NCBI GenBank assembly: GCA_003116855.1
Contig: BEWT01000016.1
Location: 52,183-116,182 of the forward strand
DNA length: 64,000 bases
DNA from: Desulfurococcaceae archaeon AG1
Lineage (GTDB): Archaea; Thermoproteota; Thermoprotei_A; Sulfolobales; AG1
Direction: 5' to 3'
Shown here: positions 2,429-44,364 of the stretch, in pieces
Layout of the letters: every line of letters begins with the position of its first letter
Numbering within the stretch: the stretch's first letter is position 1
The notes under the pieces: model-generated
What the model saw: the letters and a program-made list of their open reading frames with translations, nothing else
Told to the model about the DNA's origin: nothing
The model's database searches: none
Position numbers and translations under genes: made by a program

Positions 2429-4117
2429 CTAGTCGAGCTCAGGGGTCTTAAAGCTCTCCTCTTCCTTTCCCTCTTTTCCTTTCTTCTCCTCTTTCTCTTT
2501 CTTAGGAGCAGCTCCTATTACGTCATCTATCTTTAGCAATGATGTTGCAGCCTCGACAGCCGCTTTAATAACCTGTTTCTTTACCAGAACAGGGTCTATC
2601 ACATTTATCTTTGTCATATCATCCAGTATTTTTGCGTTTAGAACATCTATACCAGCATTGATCTTACCCTCTGCGTGGTGTTTCCTGAGATTCATTATTG
2701 TGTCAAGAACATCCATACCAGCAGTGTTGGCAAGTATCGCTGCTATCTCTTCCACAGCGTCTGCGAATGCCTGGAAGGCTAGCTGCTCCTTACCGCCAAC
2801 ACTCTCAGCAATCTTTCTCAATCTTAGGGCAAGCTCGATCTCTACGGCTCCTCCTCCAGCCACGATCTTCGGCTCTCTAATTATGTTTCTAACAGCATGC
2901 AGACCGTCGTTAAGGCTTCTCTCTGTCTCGTCAAGGATCATGTCGTTAGCGCCTCTTAGGAGAATTGTCACAGCCTTGGGGTTCTTAGCGCCTTCTACAA
3001 ACACCATTTTATCGTTACCGACCTTTCTCTCCTCAACTAGCTCTGCATAGCCTAGGTCTTTCTCTGTTAGATCCCTTATGCTCGTAACAATTCTTCCTCC
3101 TGTTGCTCTCTCGAGCTTCTCCATATCGCTCCTCTTAACCCTCCTAACAGCAAGTATACCCTTCTTAGCTAGGAAGTGCTGGGCAACATCATCAATACCC
3201 TTCTGACAGATAACAACATTAGCACCAACAGCAGCGATCTTATCAACCATATCCTTAAGCATCTTAGCCTCCTCATCGAGGAAAGCCTTTATCTGTTCAG
3301 GCGAGGTTATGCTTATCTTAGCAGTTATCTCGGGCTTCTCGATCTCGAGTGGGGCGTCTAGAAGTGCTATCTTGGCATTTACAACTCTTCTAGGCATCCC
3401 TGGATGAACAACCTCTTTATCGAGAACCACACCCCGTATCAACCTAGAGTCGAGCAGCGAGCCGCCTTTCTTCTTCTCGATCTTAACGTTATCTAGTATA
3501 ACCTCATACCTCTCTCCCCTCTTCTCAGTGGCTATTAATGCTGCCTCAACAGTCATGTCTATTAGCTTGTCGATTACATCAGGTGTAGCTATGTACTTGC
3601 TAGCCAGTATCGAGTTTAGAACCTTCTTTAGCTCCTCTTTGGATTTTGAAAAGCCCTCAGGAGTCTCGATATCCGCTATAGGTACTTTCATCGACACCTC
3701 ATCGAGAATATTTAGCGCGTGCTCCATAGCCTTCTTATAGCCTTCTATTATTATCGTCGGATGTATATTCTGATCCAGAAGTCTCTCCGCTTTCTCAAGA
3801 AGAGAACTTGCAAGAACCACCACAGAGGTTGTACCGTCACCAACCTCAGCATCGACAGCCTTGGCCGTCTCGACCAGCAGCTTAGCTGCAGGGTGTTGGA
3901 TCTCCATTTCTTTAACTATAGTTGCACCATCATTGGTAACAGTGACATCCCCAAAGCTGTCTACCAGCATCTTATCAAGTCCTCTTGGACCGAGGCTTGT
4001 TTTCAGAACCTCTCCTAGAGCCCTTGCAGCAAGTATATTGCTTCTAAGAGCCTGCCTGCCAACAGTCCTCTGTGTCCCCTCTTTCAGTATAAGAACAGGT
4101 ATCCCGTATGCCGCCAA
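2429..4117 (-). CDS. ths: Thermosome (group II chaperonin) subunit
   Basis: A CCT/TCP-1-type chaperonin subunit that forms double-ring ATP-driven folding chambers in the cytosol. Diagnostic segments are present: [12 protein letters not shown] at the N-terminus, [22 protein letters not shown], the nucleotide-site EVGDGTTS, and [10 protein letters not shown] and NAGIDV further on. The C-terminus is the usual charged tail, here lysine/glutamate-rich rather than glycine/methionine-rich. I prefer the TTG at 4117, preceded by GGTGA, which gives the typical beginning [14 protein letters not shown]; a GTG three codons upstream (4126) is the alternative. Only one subunit gene is in the window; such organisms usually carry paralogues elsewhere, so I do not assign alpha or beta. 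Confidence 0.95.
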
Positions 4118-37217: not shown

Positions 37218-38384
37218 GTGATTTTGCTGGGTTTTAGAGCTAGGTTTAGCCTTGACATATACACAGCAACCGGGGTTGTTGTTTTGCTCATTTCATCCAT
37301 AGCCTTAGCCTTTGTTGTGATCAGTAACTGGGGTTTAATAGCTATAGATAGCGACAGGAGCAATTATTTATTAATTATATTAATAGCATCAGCAACACCG
37401 CTGGCAATGCTCCTGCTATATCTGTTCAACATTAGGGGCAATAGAATAAGGCTTGGATCTGAGAAAACAGAGAAAATAGATATAGACAGCATTAAAGATA
37501 ATATTAATATTATAAATATCGAAGAGCAGGCTACAACCAAACAGCCCACAGAAAAAATCGACAAAGAAATAAAAGAAATAAAGGTTGAAACTGTTTCCAT
37601 CGGCGAGCAGAAAAAAGAACCCATAGAACAGACACAAGTTCTAGAGGAATTGAAAACATATACAGCTGGTAACGCGAAGATCGATATAGAAGGAGTGATC
37701 AGAGAAGAGGTAACTAAGGCTACTACAGACCTTATATCAAAGATCGATGGTTTTTCACAGGAGATCACAAGCGTTAAGAAAGAGCTGGAAGAGATGAAAA
37801 GCGCTGTTGAGAACGCTATGATCGATATAAGAAGTCTTCTCTCAGAAATCTCCAACCCCCTTAACTATATGAGGAGATTTGTAACAGATGAGGAGATAGA
37901 AGAACTGGGATTAAACCCAGGCCAGGGAGCAGGGGTTAATGGAGGAGAAAGAAAGAAACTGCTTACCGAGACCAAGAAGAACCATATCAAAGAACCCGGT
38001 AAAATTGTCGAACATAACAGTAATAGCCAGAACACGGAAGAGGTGAGTATTGAAAGCATTGATATCGATAATTTTAGCAAGGAACTTGCTGAGATATTTT
38101 CTAAAAAGATGAGTGTTTCAAAGCTTATGAGAATGATCATATTTATCGGAGACAATCTATCAATACTAGGCAGAGACGGTCTCTTAGGTTTAGTGGAACT
38201 AGGTGTCTCGTCAGGCGTGATTCCCAAAGAGTCTATGGATATAGTTGCGAAGGTCGTATCGCTTATAGAGAGAACAAAGATCCCTCCCAAGAGGCTTGCA
38301 TTAACACTCCACAAGCTTGCTAAATCTATCGGAGTTTCTGACAGAGAGGCTGAGTTCTTGGCGATGGCTCTCTCTGAGGGGTGA
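37218..38384 (+). CDS. arlX: Archaellum protein ArlX (FlaX), extended form
   Basis: First gene of the archaellum operon. It has two N-terminal membrane helices (about 15-38 and 49-68), a long charged coiled-coil region (about 75-235), and a helical C-terminal domain (about 290-388, SKLMRMIIFIGDNLSILGRD; LHKLAKSIGVSDREAEFLAM) resembling the FlaD/E-type domain. Crenarchaeal ArlX forms a ring around the ArlI/J motor. Sulfolobus ArlX is smaller with one helix; this longer form combines an X-like anchor with an E-like end. GTG 37218 is the frame start; TTG 37224, after GGGTGA, is an alternative. Confidence 0.7.
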   Translation: MILLGFRARFSLDIYTATGVVVLLISSIALAFVVISNWGLIAIDSDRSNYLLIILIASATPLAMLLLYLFNIRGNRIRLGSEKTEKIDIDSIKDNINIINIEEQATTKQPTEKIDKEIKEIKVETVSIGEQKKEPIEQTQVLEELKTYTAGNAKIDIEGVIREEVTKATTDLISKIDGFSQEITSVKKELEEMKSAVENAMIDIRSLLSEISNPLNYMRRFVTDEEIEELGLNPGQGAGVNGGERKKLLTETKKNHIKEPGKIVEHNSNSQNTEEVSIESIDIDNFSKELAEIFSKKMSVSKLMRMIIFIGDNLSILGRDGLLGLVELGVSSGVIPKESMDIVAKVVSLIERTKIPPKRLALTLHKLAKSIGVSDREAEFLAMALSEG

Positions 38385-38387
38385 GGC

Positions 38388-38846
38388 ATGGTAAGCACAC
38401 CGATCACTGAGGGAATACTTCTAGTAGCATCAGTAACAATAGCAGCTGTTCTATCAGCTGCTGTTCTATCCAAGGTATATTTGATGGACTCTCTATTCTC
38501 CCAGATCTCTTCTATTGAGAAGAATAACGCCCAGATAAGGCTTAAACTCGTATACCTAGCATGCAACAGCTCGACAAACTATGTAGTATACGTTAAGAAC
38601 ATTGGTATAGTACCAGTAAACCTAAGCAGTGTTGATATACTTATAGGAGTTCCTGGCTCTGAAGCGCCCCTCTGGCTATTAGGCGGTTCATCCTCGATCC
38701 TGATCCAAGGAGGAGGCCAGGTTCTACCCCAAGGCAGTATAGGTGTTATAAACATAACTCTACCAAATCCTCTCCAAACAAACATCGTATCAGTAAGGAT
38801 CATCTATCCCAACGGTGTTTCCGAATACTCTGTATGCTCTTTCTAG
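38388..38846 (+). CDS. arlG: Archaellum stator protein ArlG
   Basis: A 152-residue protein with an N-terminal hydrophobic helix (ITEGILLVASVTIAAVLSAA) and an external beta-sandwich (NYVVYVKNIGIVPVNLSSVD; GSIGVINITLPNPL), the build of ArlG, which with ArlF forms the pseudoperiplasmic stator that binds the S-layer. Its place between arlX and arlF matches the crenarchaeal order. ATG 38388 follows GAGGGGTGAGG, three bases after the arlX stop, so translation is coupled. Confidence 0.78.
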   Translation: MVSTPITEGILLVASVTIAAVLSAAVLSKVYLMDSLFSQISSIEKNNAQIRLKLVYLACNSSTNYVVYVKNIGIVPVNLSSVDILIGVPGSEAPLWLLGGSSSILIQGGGQVLPQGSIGVINITLPNPLQTNIVSVRIIYPNGVSEYSVCSF

Positions 38847-38857
38847 GAGGTGATATG

Positions 38858-39343
38858 ATGGGTCTCTCAAACGTTATTGCCTCAGGTCTCATGTTATTAG
38901 CAATGATCCAGGTGTTTATTGTGATCATGCATACCACAATGGATCTAATTGCATGGGTTTCTAGAGATCCTCTAAGACTCTCTAGCCTCTACAACAATGA
39001 TTTATGCTCTATAACTGGGGTACGGCTTTCAGTCTCTGGTAGTAGCATTACAATAAATGCTAACATAAGTAACACAGGATCCACGGGGTGGTGGGATTAT
39101 AATAAGAGCTACGTGGTCTTAGAAATCCTACTGATAGATGGATCAAAAATATTGAGTCTAAGCAGGATCTCAGATCTTCAGAAAGTAATATATAGCGATA
39201 AGATCAATCCAGGGATCGTGGATCCTGGAGAAGTGCTATCAATAAACTACACATTGGATAACATAGATCCCAACAAGGTCTCCTCATTCAAAGTGATCTT
39301 TTCAACACAGAATGGGGGTATGTGTGCTTCCATAGGGGGTTAG
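38858..39343 (+). CDS. arlF: Archaellum stator protein ArlF
   Basis: About 162 residues: N-terminal membrane helix (MGLSNVIASGLMLLAMIQVF and on), then a beta-rich external domain with ITINANISNTGSTGWWDYNK and GEVLSINYTLDNID. ArlF binds S-layer protein and, with ArlG, anchors the rotating motor. The frame opens at 38834, within arlG, but GGAGGTG lies just upstream of ATG 38858, which I prefer. Four bases separate its stop from arlH. Confidence 0.78.
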   Translation: MGLSNVIASGLMLLAMIQVFIVIMHTTMDLIAWVSRDPLRLSSLYNNDLCSITGVRLSVSGSSITINANISNTGSTGWWDYNKSYVVLEILLIDGSKILSLSRISDLQKVIYSDKINPGIVDPGEVLSINYTLDNIDPNKVSSFKVIFSTQNGGMCASIGG

Positions 39344-39347
39344 GAGT

Positions 39348-40082
39348 ATGAATGTAAAACCCAGTATCCAAACTAAACAAAAACTTCTTCCAACAGGGAT
39401 CGAGGAGCTAGATGTTAAGCTTGGAGGAGGAATCCCAGTGCCGTCATTGATACTTATGGAGGGCTCCCATGGAACAGGCAAAACGGTGCTCAGCTTCTTA
39501 GTTACATCAACGCTTCTCACCCACGGACTCAGGGTTCTATATATAACAACTGAAACAACGGTGAAAGAATTGATTGAAAAGGCATACTTAGCAGGGTTCA
39601 GGAATATCAGAAGCTCGTTTATAAAAGGCCTGCTCATGATATACTCTGTCCACATAGCTGGTGCTGAATGGGATGAGAAGCTGGGAAGAAGATCCCTAAG
39701 GATCATTTCTAAGTTCTTCTCAGGTTTTGCAGATAGATATGACGCCATGGTTATAGACTCACTATCAATACTAGTTACATACTCGTCTAAAGACACTCTG
39801 CTCGACTTCCTCACATTCCTTAGGAACGAGACAAGCCTTGGAAAAACAATGGTTGTAACAATACATCCGGGATCTCTAGATGAATCTATGAGCCTCAGGC
39901 TAAGAGCAGTCTCTGATATATATCTATACCTAGATCTAATCAACTTCGGCGGTAGAATTTATAAAACTATAGGTGTGAAAAAGATCTATGGAATAACATC
40001 CCCAGCAGAATCCTCTATAGTATTTGATATAGATCCCTCGATAGGCTTTAGAGTCGTACCAATATCCCTCTCAACGATGTGA
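39348..40082 (+). CDS. arlH: Archaellum motor regulator ArlH (KaiC/RecA-like ATP-binding)
   Basis: The 244-residue protein has a RecA-fold core: GIEELDVKLGGGIPVPSLIL, Walker A GSHGTGKTVL, and a Walker B region YDAMVIDSLSILVTY. ArlH binds ATP and docks on ArlI/ArlX as part of the motor complex, probably as a regulatory element in assembly. ATG 39348 follows AGGAG. It is followed by a 114-base gap before arlI, the only real gap in the operon, which may hold a secondary promoter. Confidence 0.9.
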   Translation: MNVKPSIQTKQKLLPTGIEELDVKLGGGIPVPSLILMEGSHGTGKTVLSFLVTSTLLTHGLRVLYITTETTVKELIEKAYLAGFRNIRSSFIKGLLMIYSVHIAGAEWDEKLGRRSLRIISKFFSGFADRYDAMVIDSLSILVTYSSKDTLLDFLTFLRNETSLGKTMVVTIHPGSLDESMSLRLRAVSDIYLYLDLINFGGRIYKTIGVKKIYGITSPAESSIVFDIDPSIGFRVVPISLSTM

Positions 40083-40196: not shown

Positions 40197-42926
40197 ATGA
40201 GTATGCGTGGTAAGGGAGAAATTGAGTTAGAGAAACTGTTGTTCGCTAAAGGGTATAAAAAAGAGATTCTCCAGCGAAACCCGCATCTTGTTGACTATTT
40301 AGCAAAAATAGCGATGGAGAAGAAAGATGTACCAACATTTACCGAGGTTCTTGGTGACGAGCTTAAGTATGCTGACAGATTCAACGTAATCTACCCAGTA
40401 GGTGATCCTATATTCATCCATGCATTCTCTCTTGATAGTAAGAGCTCGCCATCCGCACACCAGAGAAAATACCATGCAATCGAGCCAGAGGTGCCGTCAA
40501 AACAACTCATCGAGGCTGTTGAAGAGGCTTTTGCTATCGAGAGCGGAAACTACGAACCCCCAGAGGATCTTGAGGAGAAGAAAGCCTTGATAAATAAGAT
40601 ACTAGATAAGATTCTAATCCCTGTTAACAGAGAGAGGGGTTTCTATAGGGTCAGGAAGGGAAAGGTTGAGGTTTCGGTGAAAGATCTTGAGCATATAAGG
40701 TATTACATGCTCAGAGAGAAGATCGGTGTAAGCCTATTAGAACCCCTCCTACGTGATCCGTATATCGAAGATATCTCATGCCCAGGGGCTGGGTGTATAT
40801 ATATAGTTCACAAGATCTTCGGTCCCTCAGAGACCAATATTTGTTTTAAGGATAGTGAGGAGCTAAACAGATTCATAATAAAGCTTTCTGAAAGAATAGG
40901 AAAGCCTGTGTCTAGAGCAAGGCCTATCGTTGACGCTGTCCTCCCCGACGGCTCGAGGATCAATATAGTATATGGAGAAGATGTATCTCTCAGGGGAAGT
41001 AACTTCACTATAAGGAAGTTTGCTAAGGAACCTGCAAGCGTGACACAACTGATCAGATGGGGTACCATGAGCCCAGAGATCGCCGCGTATCTATGGATGG
41101 CGTTAAGGGAGCAAATGAACGTATTCATATGTGGTGAGACAGCATCTGGCAAAACGACCACGCTTAACGCTATAGCTGCATTCATACCTCCAGAGTATAA
41201 AATAATATCTATAGAGGATACTGCTGAGGTTAACCTACCCCACGAGAACTGGGTTAGAGAGCTAACGAGGGATACGGGTTCTCAGGAGTCGAGCGTGTCT
41301 ATGTTCGATCTTCTGAGAGCAGCACTCAGGCAGAGGCCGAACTACATCATAGTTGGGGAGATAAGGGGTAGAGAGGGCAATATAGCCTTCCAAGCCATGC
41401 AGAGCGTTTCCTGGCATACACCTGTTATGGTTAGACACAATGGAGGTATCGAGATCAGGGCTATAGGGGATCTTGTTGATAGCTTCTTCAAAGATGGTGA
41501 GGAGGGCGTCAAGAGGGTTACAGGGTTAGAGGTGCTTACGATAACGAGAAGCCTTAGGGTTGGATTTGCGGAAGTGGGTAGTGTTATCAGGCATAGGTAT
41601 AAAGGGAAGCTCTATAGGATCAGGCTATCTGATGGAAGCTATGTTGATGTGACAGGCTCTCACTCCCTTATGGCCTATAACCCCTTAGTAGGTGTCTATG
41701 AGGCTAAACCAACAGAATTATATAAAGGTGACTGGCTACTTACAGCATCGCTCTCCACAGGAATTGACGATGAGTCTTTAGGAAACGCTGAAGCCCCCGG
41801 ATATATATGTGGTCTAGCCCTCATGCTATGCGATGCAGAGGATAGGGAAGAGAGGTATAAGTCGAGGTTCAGGGATAGACTTAACAAAGGTTGGAAAGGT
41901 TTTCCAGAGATTTTGAAAAGACTATCACGGATCTTTGACGGAAAAACGATTCCCGACCTACAACCAACTATGACAGAGAAACCCGTATCTAAGGATTTAA
42001 AGATGGCTAGTATCATCAAATGCGCCGAGGGCTTGCTCCCTCTCGACATCTTATATTCTAGATCCTATGCATTTGGTCTTGTCAACGCGATAGAAGATCT
42101 ATGTGGAAGAAGATGTAATTGGATAACGGTTAGAGGCGTATCCCTTGAAGATATCGTCGGCTGGCTCAAGAGGATCCACGGGTTAGAGGATCCAGAGAGC
42201 ATGGTGGACGGTGATCCCAGCGAGAGCATAGTAAGGCTGGGAAGAGGTGTAAGTGCTGTTAGTATAGCATCGATAGAAGAGATAGACTATGACGGTTACG
42301 TATACGATCTCTCAGTGCCGGGGGAAGAAACATTCCTAGGAGGCTCTAGACCCATATTGCTCCACAACACCGGGCATGGTGTTATGAGCACCTTTCATGC
42401 AGCAAATCTTCAGAGGCTTGTCCAGAGGCTTACTGGAAGTCCTATAGAGGTTCCCCCAAGCTATCTTGATAACCTGAATATAGCAGTGTTCCAGAGCGCT
42501 GTATACGATAAGAGAGGAAGGCTAATGAGAAGAGTTATAGAGGTTGACGAGATAATAGGATACGATCCTAGCAGAGGAGGGATCGCTTACCTTCCAGCAT
42601 TCATATGGGATCCTGGTAGAGATGTACACATATATGCTGGAAGAGGCTCCTCATTCATACTCGAGTACAAAATAGCTTTGAGGAGGGGTATTCCTAGGAG
42701 CCAGATAAAAAGGATCTATGACGAGCTAGCGTTAAGAGCACGTTTTCTAGACCTTCTAGCAAAGAACAAGGTGACCAGCTACTGGAGTGTGTGGAAGGCT
42801 ATCAGGGCCACCTATACCCAGCCTCTGGAGGATCTTGTTAGAAGTCTCGAAGAAGGTGATCTCAGCTTTATAGAAGGGGTGAAGGTCAATGTTAGCCAGG
42901 CTAAAGCCCAGGCTCGATATACTTAG
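40197..42926 (+). CDS. arlI: Archaellum motor ATPase ArlI, interrupted by an intein
   Basis: ArlI is the hexameric type II/IV secretion-family ATPase that drives archaellum assembly and rotation. Extein motifs: GSNFTIRKFAKEP, Walker A GETASGKTTT (about 313-321), Walker B IIVGEIRGREG (E388), then after the intein TGHGVMSTFHAANLQRLVQR with the His box, and an arginine-rich C-terminus. The precursor is 909 residues; removal of residues 403-724 restores a 587-residue ATPase with the conserved AMQ-TGHG junction. GTGGTGAT lies just before ATG 40197. The 3' end overlaps arlJ by 38 bases. Without splicing, Walker B would be parted from the TGH/His segment by 322 residues, so the motor should be inactive. 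Confidence 0.93.
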   Translation: MSMRGKGEIELEKLLFAKGYKKEILQRNPHLVDYLAKIAMEKKDVPTFTEVLGDELKYADRFNVIYPVGDPIFIHAFSLDSKSSPSAHQRKYHAIEPEVPSKQLIEAVEEAFAIESGNYEPPEDLEEKKALINKILDKILIPVNRERGFYRVRKGKVEVSVKDLEHIRYYMLREKIGVSLLEPLLRDPYIEDISCPGAGCIYIVHKIFGPSETNICFKDSEELNRFIIKLSERIGKPVSRARPIVDAVLPDGSRINIVYGEDVSLRGSNFTIRKFAKEPASVTQLIRWGTMSPEIAAYLWMALREQMNVFICGETASGKTTTLNAIAAFIPPEYKIISIEDTAEVNLPHENWVRELTRDTGSQESSVSMFDLLRAALRQRPNYIIVGEIRGREGNIAFQAMQSVSWHTPVMVRHNGGIEIRAIGDLVDSFFKDGEEGVKRVTGLEVLTITRSLRVGFAEVGSVIRHRYKGKLYRIRLSDGSYVDVTGSHSLMAYNPLVGVYEAKPTELYKGDWLLTASLSTGIDDESLGNAEAPGYICGLALMLCDAEDREERYKSRFRDRLNKGWKGFPEILKRLSRIFDGKTIPDLQPTMTEKPVSKDLKMASIIKCAEGLLPLDILYSRSYAFGLVNAIEDLCGRRCNWITVRGVSLEDIVGWLKRIHGLEDPESMVDGDPSESIVRLGRGVSAVSIASIEEIDYDGYVYDLSVPGEETFLGGSRPILLHNTGHGVMSTFHAANLQRLVQRLTGSPIEVPPSYLDNLNIAVFQSAVYDKRGRLMRRVIEVDEIIGYDPSRGGIAYLPAFIWDPGRDVHIYAGRGSSFILEYKIALRRGIPRSQIKRIYDELALRARFLDLLAKNKVTSYWSVWKAIRATYTQPLEDLVRSLEEGDLSFIEGVKVNVSQAKAQARYT
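41403..42368 (+). mobile_element. Intein in ArlI (322 residues, degenerate LAGLIDADG-like insert)
   Basis: Residues 403-724 of the precursor. Block A: S403-V-S-W-H-T-P-V with serine as the first nucleophile and His in place of the usual Asp/Glu. Block B: VDVTGSHSL (T486, H489). Block F: YDGYVYDLSVPGEETFLGG; block G: LLHN (H723-N724), with Thr725 of the host as the second nucleophile. Between B and F, about 190 residues include GYICGLALMLCDAE and SYAFGLVNAIEDLCG, which look like worn LAGLIDADG helices. All splicing residues are present, so splicing is probably active while homing may be lost. Confidence 0.88.
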
Positions 42927-44364
42927 AGTCTTTAGAGCTGGCATGGATACCGAGGATCTCTTTCTACTGGTGCATCTATATGCTCTTATAAGCTCAGGTA
43001 TTGAGAGGAAAGAGGCTATAGATCTTATCTCTAGGGAAGAGAAGATCTATAGAAAAACCTCAAAGATCCTTAGGTTTGTGAGCATACTTACTAAAAAGTG
43101 GGGCTATGATACAATATTCACACTCGTTACAGCTTCAAAGAGGGTTAGAAAGGCGTTTATTAAAGATTTCCTCGAAAGACTATCACAAATCGTGGGCTCA
43201 GGCGCTGACCTCGTACTCTTCCTTAGAAACGAGATAGAGAGCTCCTTAATAACATATGTCAACCAGTTCGACAAGATCTTCGAGGCTGCGAGAGTTCTTT
43301 TTAGCCTCTTCTCAACATTTATGAGCGCATCTGTCTTTATGCTATCTAACATGGTGATCATAGCAATGCTGCTAGGCGGTGGCGACTATCTAGCCATAGT
43401 ATCAACTATAGGTCTTCTATTATCTTTAGTGGCACTGGGCATAGTGGTTATAACCATGATGCCGAGGGACCCTATAGCTGTAAACGGTTCTAAAAACGAC
43501 AAGACCATCAACAGATATGCATTGTTATCAATATTACTAGGGCTTTCGTTATTCACTATAGCCTATACTATTTACCCATATATGATGATCCTTCCAATAC
43601 TTATGCTATCGCTTCCAATGATCTTTATGGGTAGATTAATACTGAGGATCGAGGCAAAACTCATGAGATACGACGAAATGTTCCCAGTCTTCACCAGGAG
43701 CCTTGGTCATATACTAAGCGTTATCCCAGATATGGGGCAAGGGATAAAGGTTATTATGAGAGGCTCGCTAGGGATTCTTGAGCCTAACATAGTGCTCCTT
43801 AAGAGAAGATTATCATTGAGGATCCAGCTTGAAAGGGCTTGGAACATGATGCTAGACGAGATAGGGTCAAGGATCTGCCTGTTCTCTGGAAAAGTCATGC
43901 TCCAAACATTCCTATACCAAGGCGATGTTAAGGGTATTGGTAAGATGCTGGGAGATATAATGAGCTCTATAAATGATCTGAGAAAAAAGAGGATCCAAAT
44001 CGCCAAGGCCTTCGAATCAACCCTGTTAATGCTCCACCTCCTAGTATCAGCAATACTTGGTCTTATAAGCTCGCTCGTCTCCCTATTCTCATACATACTG
44101 GGTCTCACAGAACAAAGAATAATATCCATAACGCCGATAAGCAATGAAACCGTCTTCATCATAAACATGATAACAATAATAACAGTAGCAATAATAAACG
44201 GGTTAGTTGCTAGGGCTTCTTATCCTGGAAGCATAAAAGGAGCGGTATATCATATAGGGATAATGTTGGCTCTAGGATGGATAGTATATACCGTGTCAAA
44301 CAACACGCTGATAGCGATAATAGAGAACATGCTTGGAGAACTCAAGATCCCAGTAACCCCATAG
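42889..44364 (+). CDS. arlJ: Archaellum platform protein ArlJ
   Basis: The polytopic membrane platform (TadC/GspF-like) on which the ArlI hexamer works. The 491 residues show membrane helices at about 140-165, 170-195, 210-240 and, after a cytoplasmic region with MRYDEMFPVFTRSLGHILS and basic KRRLSLRIQLERAW, further helices near the C-terminus (about 375-400, 420-450, 455-480). This fits the ArlJ pattern of N-terminal cytosolic segment, core helices and basic loops that contact ArlI. It is coupled to arlI by overlap and closes the operon. No preflagellin peptidase gene follows. Confidence 0.88.
   Translation: MLARLKPRLDILRVFRAGMDTEDLFLLVHLYALISSGIERKEAIDLISREEKIYRKTSKILRFVSILTKKWGYDTIFTLVTASKRVRKAFIKDFLERLSQIVGSGADLVLFLRNEIESSLITYVNQFDKIFEAARVLFSLFSTFMSASVFMLSNMVIIAMLLGGGDYLAIVSTIGLLLSLVALGIVVITMMPRDPIAVNGSKNDKTINRYALLSILLGLSLFTIAYTIYPYMMILPILMLSLPMIFMGRLILRIEAKLMRYDEMFPVFTRSLGHILSVIPDMGQGIKVIMRGSLGILEPNIVLLKRRLSLRIQLERAWNMMLDEIGSRICLFSGKVMLQTFLYQGDVKGIGKMLGDIMSSINDLRKKRIQIAKAFESTLLMLHLLVSAILGLISSLVSLFSYILGLTEQRIISITPISNETVFIINMITIITVAIINGLVARASYPGSIKGAVYHIGIMLALGWIVYTVSNNTLIAIIENMLGELKIPVTP

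Follow-up and report, generated by a model that had tools for sequence, protein, structure and literature searches.

The window analysed here, 64,000 nucleotides of contig BEWT01000016.1 from Desulfurococcaceae archaeon AG1, holds an archaellum gene cluster whose arlI, the gene for the motor ATPase, carries an intein in frame (Table 1). The AG1 arlI sits in an intact archaellum operon, and two more archaellin genes lie on the same contig about 140 kb from it.

Table 1. Genes of the AG1 archaellum operon and parts of the arlI intein, in positions of the window.
Feature	Position	Strand	Basis
arlX-like gene (weak)	37218..38384	+	Pfam ArlX E=1.8e-5, NF058591 5.9e-7, both below cut-off
Archaellin-fold gene, arlG position	38388..38846	+	PF01917 E=3.2e-8
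arlF-like gene (weak)	38834..39343	+	FlaF_Ig-like E=0.02, below cut-off; operon position
arlH	39348..40082	+	NF004723 FlaH 215.9 bits, cut-off 194
arlI/flaI, 909-aa precursor with intein	40197..42926	+	NCBIfam NF058587, Pfam T2SSE, FlaI 4II7
N-extein, 402 aa, Walker A (GETASGKTT) and Walker B (YIIVGEIRG)	40197..41402	+	aligned to FlaI 6-350
Class 1 intein, 322 aa	41403..42368	+	PF14890 E=1.9e-19; 21 same-site inteins in alignment
Block A SVSWHTP, Ser1; His where relatives have Asp/Glu	41403..41423	+	alignment
Block B VDVTGSHSLM, Thr84 and His87	41643..41672	+	invariant in 21 ArlI inteins
Middle part with degenerate homing endonuclease region, residues 119-280	41757..42242	+	37% identity, dN 0.64 to congener
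LAGLIDADG helix remnants APGYICGLALMLCDAED; SRSYAFGLVNAIEDLCG	~41793-41843; ~42057-42107	+	within middle part
Block F VYDLSVPGEETFL, Asp302; Glu309 in place of the usual His	42300..42338	+	alignment
Block G ILLHN, His321-Asn322	42354..42368	+	invariant His-Asn
C-extein, first residue Thr+1 of TGHG	42369..42926	+	aligned to FlaI 351-508
arlJ	42889..44364	+	NF004705 ArlJ/FlaJ E=1.4e-99

The frame at 40197-42926 is open across all 909 codons, and its product was recognised as ArlI/FlaI by an equivalog-level match to the NCBIfam profile NF058587 (660 bits, cut-off 550), by its Walker motifs and by the arl operon around it. In an alignment to the solved Sulfolobus FlaI (PDB ID 4II7, E=5e-171), FlaI 6-350 corresponds to residues 33-402 of the precursor and FlaI 351-508 to residues 725-882, and since FlaI residues 350 and 351 adjoin across the gap, the 322 residues encoded at 41403-42368 are an exact insertion. 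Walker A, Walker B and the TGH segment are all intact, the insertion point lying after Walker B and ahead of the TGH/His segment, and ArlI freed of its intein is 587 residues long. An earlier, sequence-only reading had proposed an intein of this length at these positions, between Walker B and the TGH/His segment, whose removal restores AMQ-TGH and leaves about 587 residues; this proved exact to the residue, as the same 322 residues are absent from the solved FlaI and from 16 intein-less ArlI of relatives, which read FQAMQ(T/A)GH with no insert (AMQ-AGH in one). An RNA intron was dropped as the cause of the insert, which is in frame and has the full set of intein blocks. Intein and exteins are alike in G+C content (46.2% against 44.9 and 46.4%), and no further intein was found in the 2.0 Mb genome (94.8% complete).

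The insert scores 70.5 bits with the Pfam family Intein_splicing (PF14890; cut-off 35.8, E=1.9e-19) and also passes both NCBIfam terminal profiles (intein_Nterm 39.5, cut-off 24.5; intein_Cterm 18.1, cut-off 15.6). Counting AG1, we found 21 complete inteins at exactly this AMQ^TGH site of ArlI, 229 to 459 residues long, and among the positions invariant in all of them are Ser1, Val2, Thr84, Gly85, Ser86, His87, Asp302, His321, Asn322 and Thr+1. A common site and common splicing residues in 21 aligned rows from different genomes are far beyond chance. With its exact in-frame insertion, Ser1, Thr+1, the TxxH of block B (Thr84/His87) and a C-terminal His-Asn, the AG1 element has the features of a class 1 intein. 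Class 2 (KlbA-type) inteins need Ala1, a penultimate Ser and Cys+1, where AG1 has Ser1, His321 and Thr+1, and class 3 needs a Cys at block F position 4, which in AG1 is Asp302; both classes were rejected. Blocks A, B, F and G, with Ser1, the block B Thr and His, the terminal His-Asn and Thr+1, had already been named from the letters alone, as had the His that replaces the block A Asp/Glu, and that replacement is real: the position is Asp in 15 and Glu in 4 of the 21 ArlI inteins, His in AG1 and Tyr in its congener, so that His/Tyr here is, as far as the alignment reaches, a peculiarity of the AG1 genus. In block F, Asp302 is present and the usual His is replaced by Glu309. The block F Asp and downstream His are usual in class 1 inteins, with less conservation and no strict requirement (PMC4031507). 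Either the block A His or the missing block F His could slow splicing, although block A varies in the congener as well, and the block F Glu is near-universal in the ArlI intein family and also occurs in the solved archaeal TFIIB inteins.

We consider it very probable that the AG1 element is a class 1 intein able to splice, set in the catalytic core of ArlI, and that it descends from a homing intein which invades, in Thermoproteota, the conserved AM(Q/A)^TGH codons both of ArlI and of related secretion/pilus ATPases. On this reading the endonuclease has decayed in the AG1 genus and splicing alone is kept, because an interrupted ATPase should not work. From the conservation of its residues we infer that the AG1 intein splices, and from its location, where it parts Walker B from the His-containing segment, that unspliced ArlI is inactive. 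The chemistry of class 1 splicing is established (PMC4031507), and applied to AG1 it would begin with a single 909-residue chain, in which Ser1 would take the N-extein as an ester, aided by Thr84, His87 and Asp302, and pass it on to Thr+1. Asn322 would then cyclise with the aid of His321, with Glu309 in the place of the usual block F His, and an acyl shift would yield the 587-residue ArlI with AMQ-TGH restored. As a target for metaproteomes of the source site we suggest the peptide AFQAMQTGHGVMSTF.

It is very unlikely, in our judgement, that splicing has been lost and ArlI is either inactive or working unspliced. Such a reading could point to the two changed, less conserved positions (block A His, block F Glu), and decay does occur in the group, a different ArlI intein being found within a broken arlI in the genome G053. 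Yet the required residues of the AG1 intein are all intact, its splicing parts change far more slowly than its middle, the exteins are 81-86% identical to those of the congener, which implies that ArlI is under constraint, and an insertion left in place would separate Walker B from the TGH segment.

The AG1 gene was compared part by part with that of the congener (G001). Identity is 81% and 86% in the exteins, 69% and 74% in the splicing parts and 37% in the middle, and dN follows the same order (0.14/0.12, 0.22/0.16 and 0.64); as synonymous sites are saturated between the two, selection is read from these dN contrasts and not from dN/dS. The contrast indicates that the splicing parts are retained while the endonuclease part decays. 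The two LAGLIDADG helices had been described as worn and the intein as possibly fixed. The wear is real: neither a recognisable domain nor the acidic catalytic residues of an active LAGLIDADG endonuclease were seen in AG1, in which Pfam finds no LAGLIDADG match, while LAGLIDADG_3 is matched by relatives of 457 residues. Fixation fits as far as sequence goes, given the fast-evolving middle and the presence of the intein in both AG1-genus species examined. In keeping with this the AG1 intein looks like an old, immobile copy. That it is still mobile, with an active but divergent endonuclease, we hold to be extremely unlikely: the middle is open, of near-equal length in the congener and has short conserved stretches (e.g. 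IVGWLKRIH), but an in-frame insert has to stay open regardless, and the missing domain match, the helices devoid of acidic positions and the 37% identity between congeners all speak against it. Moreover, the splicing parts share only 35-43% identity with every sampled intein outside the genus, with no sign of recent transfer, which fits long residence in the lineage of AG1.

Elsewhere in the family some endonuclease-bearing inteins are more alike than their hosts, which points to horizontal spread of that lineage: G060, of the class of AG1 but another order, is 75% identical to G026 in the splicing parts and 64% in the exteins, and for G052 and G026 the values are 69% and 65%. On the extein tree intein presence takes 7 changes against 12.3 with shuffled labels, so presence is clustered, yet with repeated gain or loss. 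Holding the endonuclease-bearing inteins as one clade is rejected by the extein tree in an AU test (p 1.6e-9), although this is no proof of transfer since the clade is not resolved on the intein tree itself. On the intein tree, a constraint that keeps the extein clade G006/G026/G182/G185/G179/G181 together is mildly rejected (p 0.031), and one that joins the AG1 genus with G003 is borderline (p 0.051); this tree is weakly resolved and supports no finer history.

The 21 complete ArlI inteins come from a survey of 59 relatives and of 229 genomes of the class. Of the 229, 94 have a detectable ArlI C-terminal domain, and, as judged from match starts, frame lengths and sequences, an intein end precedes it in 27 and the site is empty in 67. 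An intein of the AG1-type family occupies 23 of the 27, and another type the remaining four, all of one genus. The AG1-family intein also lies at contig edges or in partial frames in four further genomes (G003, G028, G147 and G177). Named hosts are mostly Desulfurococcales metagenome genomes, plus Fervidicoccus and Ignisphaera. Within the family of AG1 a second genus has a 304-residue version and a third (G004) an intein-less ArlI. Across a phylum sample of 398 genomes the copies in ArlI were seen only within the order of AG1, and no AG1-family ArlI intein appeared in other classes, though inteins of secretion/pilus ATPases at the homologous site do occur there. These relatives suggest movement between paralogues. 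Among viral contigs, 24 pattern matches included no relative of the AG1 intein.

Similar to that of AG1, the ArlI inteins of Desulfurococcales-type archaea (e.g. G001, G026, G052 and G012) share the site, Ser1/Thr+1 and the block F Glu, while the other ArlI inteins differ from it in having Asp/Glu in block A, in lengths that range over 229-459 residues and in some cases in LAGLIDADG domains. The secretion/pilus ATPase inteins occupy the same place in the ATPase fold, begin with SVSxDTP, end with LLHN and are found by the same profile, but have another host gene, are mostly 426-485 residues long and extend to other classes. Among solved structures, the archaeal TFIIB mini-inteins 5O9I (Mvu) and 5O9J (Mja) are the top sequence match of the family profile (E=8.8e-32). 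The predicted splicing part of AG1 adopts a HINT fold in the model, with pLDDT mostly 70-94, and matches solved inteins, among them 5O9I (E=7e-10, TMt 0.81); the TFIIB mini-inteins combine a strong fold match with the same block F Glu, but sit in another host gene and site and lack a middle part. The middle of the AG1 model (pLDDT about 38) is unreliable and was left uninterpreted, and the AlphaFold precursor, with pLDDT under 50 at 390-401 and 725-735, says nothing firm on the unspliced ATPase. The Methanocaldococcus jannaschii KlbA intein (2JMZ, MJ0781), whose host is a secretion-type ATPase, also has the intein fold. It is class 2, with Ala1, Cys+1 and a penultimate Ser (PMC4031507), in contrast to the class 1 intein of AG1.

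The Pyrococcus horikoshii RadA intein (2LQM, 4E2T) matches in sequence and fold and likewise sits in the ATPase core of a hyperthermophile, though in the RadA P-loop, and with its native exteins it splices only when hot (PMC5790916). As an ATPase-core intein under thermal control it is the precedent for a further reading, in which the AG1 intein was co-opted so that ArlI maturation and motility depend on temperature or redox. The loss of the endonuclease with splicing kept would suit this, as would the altered block A and the cysteines of the remnant: four of the five in the middle part (Cys136, 207, 234 and 238) are conserved in the congener despite 37% identity, and a disulphide or redox role for them is possible, although two sequences are too few to tell. 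Against such a switch, the intein is absent from most relatives with an archaellum operon, and heat dependence would come automatically in any hyperthermophile and on its own signals nothing. Since many of these relatives have an intein-less ArlI, the intein is dispensable in the group, and any switch would be a lineage-specific secondary use only. We therefore regard co-option as unlikely, and the more particular proposal, in which an endonuclease-free intein whose block A is altered and whose remnant domain bears cysteines makes archaellum motor maturation depend on temperature or redox, as quite improbable; if true, it would be a post-translational switch for archaeal motility.

The AG1 element is a real intein and ordinary in kind. 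No ArlI/FlaI intein was found in the searchable papers, subscription papers and intein databases being outside that scope, and within this literature the kind of element is known, while ArlI as its host and AMQ^TGH as its site appear to be new. The archaellum motor ATPase thereby joins the hosts of inteins, with a catalytic-core site occupied in over a quarter of the genomes in which its C-terminal domain was detected. The ArlI inteins form a series from endonuclease-bearing, apparently transferred copies through worn ones such as that of AG1 to mini-inteins, and this would make a compact natural experiment on the decay of a homing element under continued selection for splicing, as well as a clean system for asking whether splicing limits motility.

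Several further inteins came to light. In G082, G083 and G084 (L147, L148 and L149; one genus) the other intein type lies at AMQ^TGH of ArlI, in complete frames of 958-1007 codons, with a Cys start and a Glu-Asp end (GYPIPLED) instead of His-Asn. A terminal Asp is known in inteins, if uncommon. In G053, of the same genus (L042:1815-3868), arlI is broken, with about 280 N-terminal residues missing and the frame beginning within the last part of a metal-ATPase gene; a frame change splits its intein over the frames 1815-2840 and 2831-3868. A second ArlI site is the P-loop (CGES...LAHN^TASGKT), occupied at L041 (G024), L105 (G150) and L150 (G101); G024 and G150 have inteins at both sites, G101 at the P-loop only, its TGH site being empty. 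The secretion/pilus ATPase inteins lie at FQA(I/M)A^TGH (L043, L044, L085, L099, L163-L169 and others, including other classes), and at L092, L098 and L086 there is an apparent second intein start (CLP..DQLVL) after TGHGG. In related archaea (L102, L103, L112, L114-L118; L109, L110) the AG1-family profile also picks out inteins of two other hosts, the replication factor C small subunit (site ELNA^SDERG) and a gene resembling sugar-nucleotide dehydratases (VHVS^...^TDEVYG).
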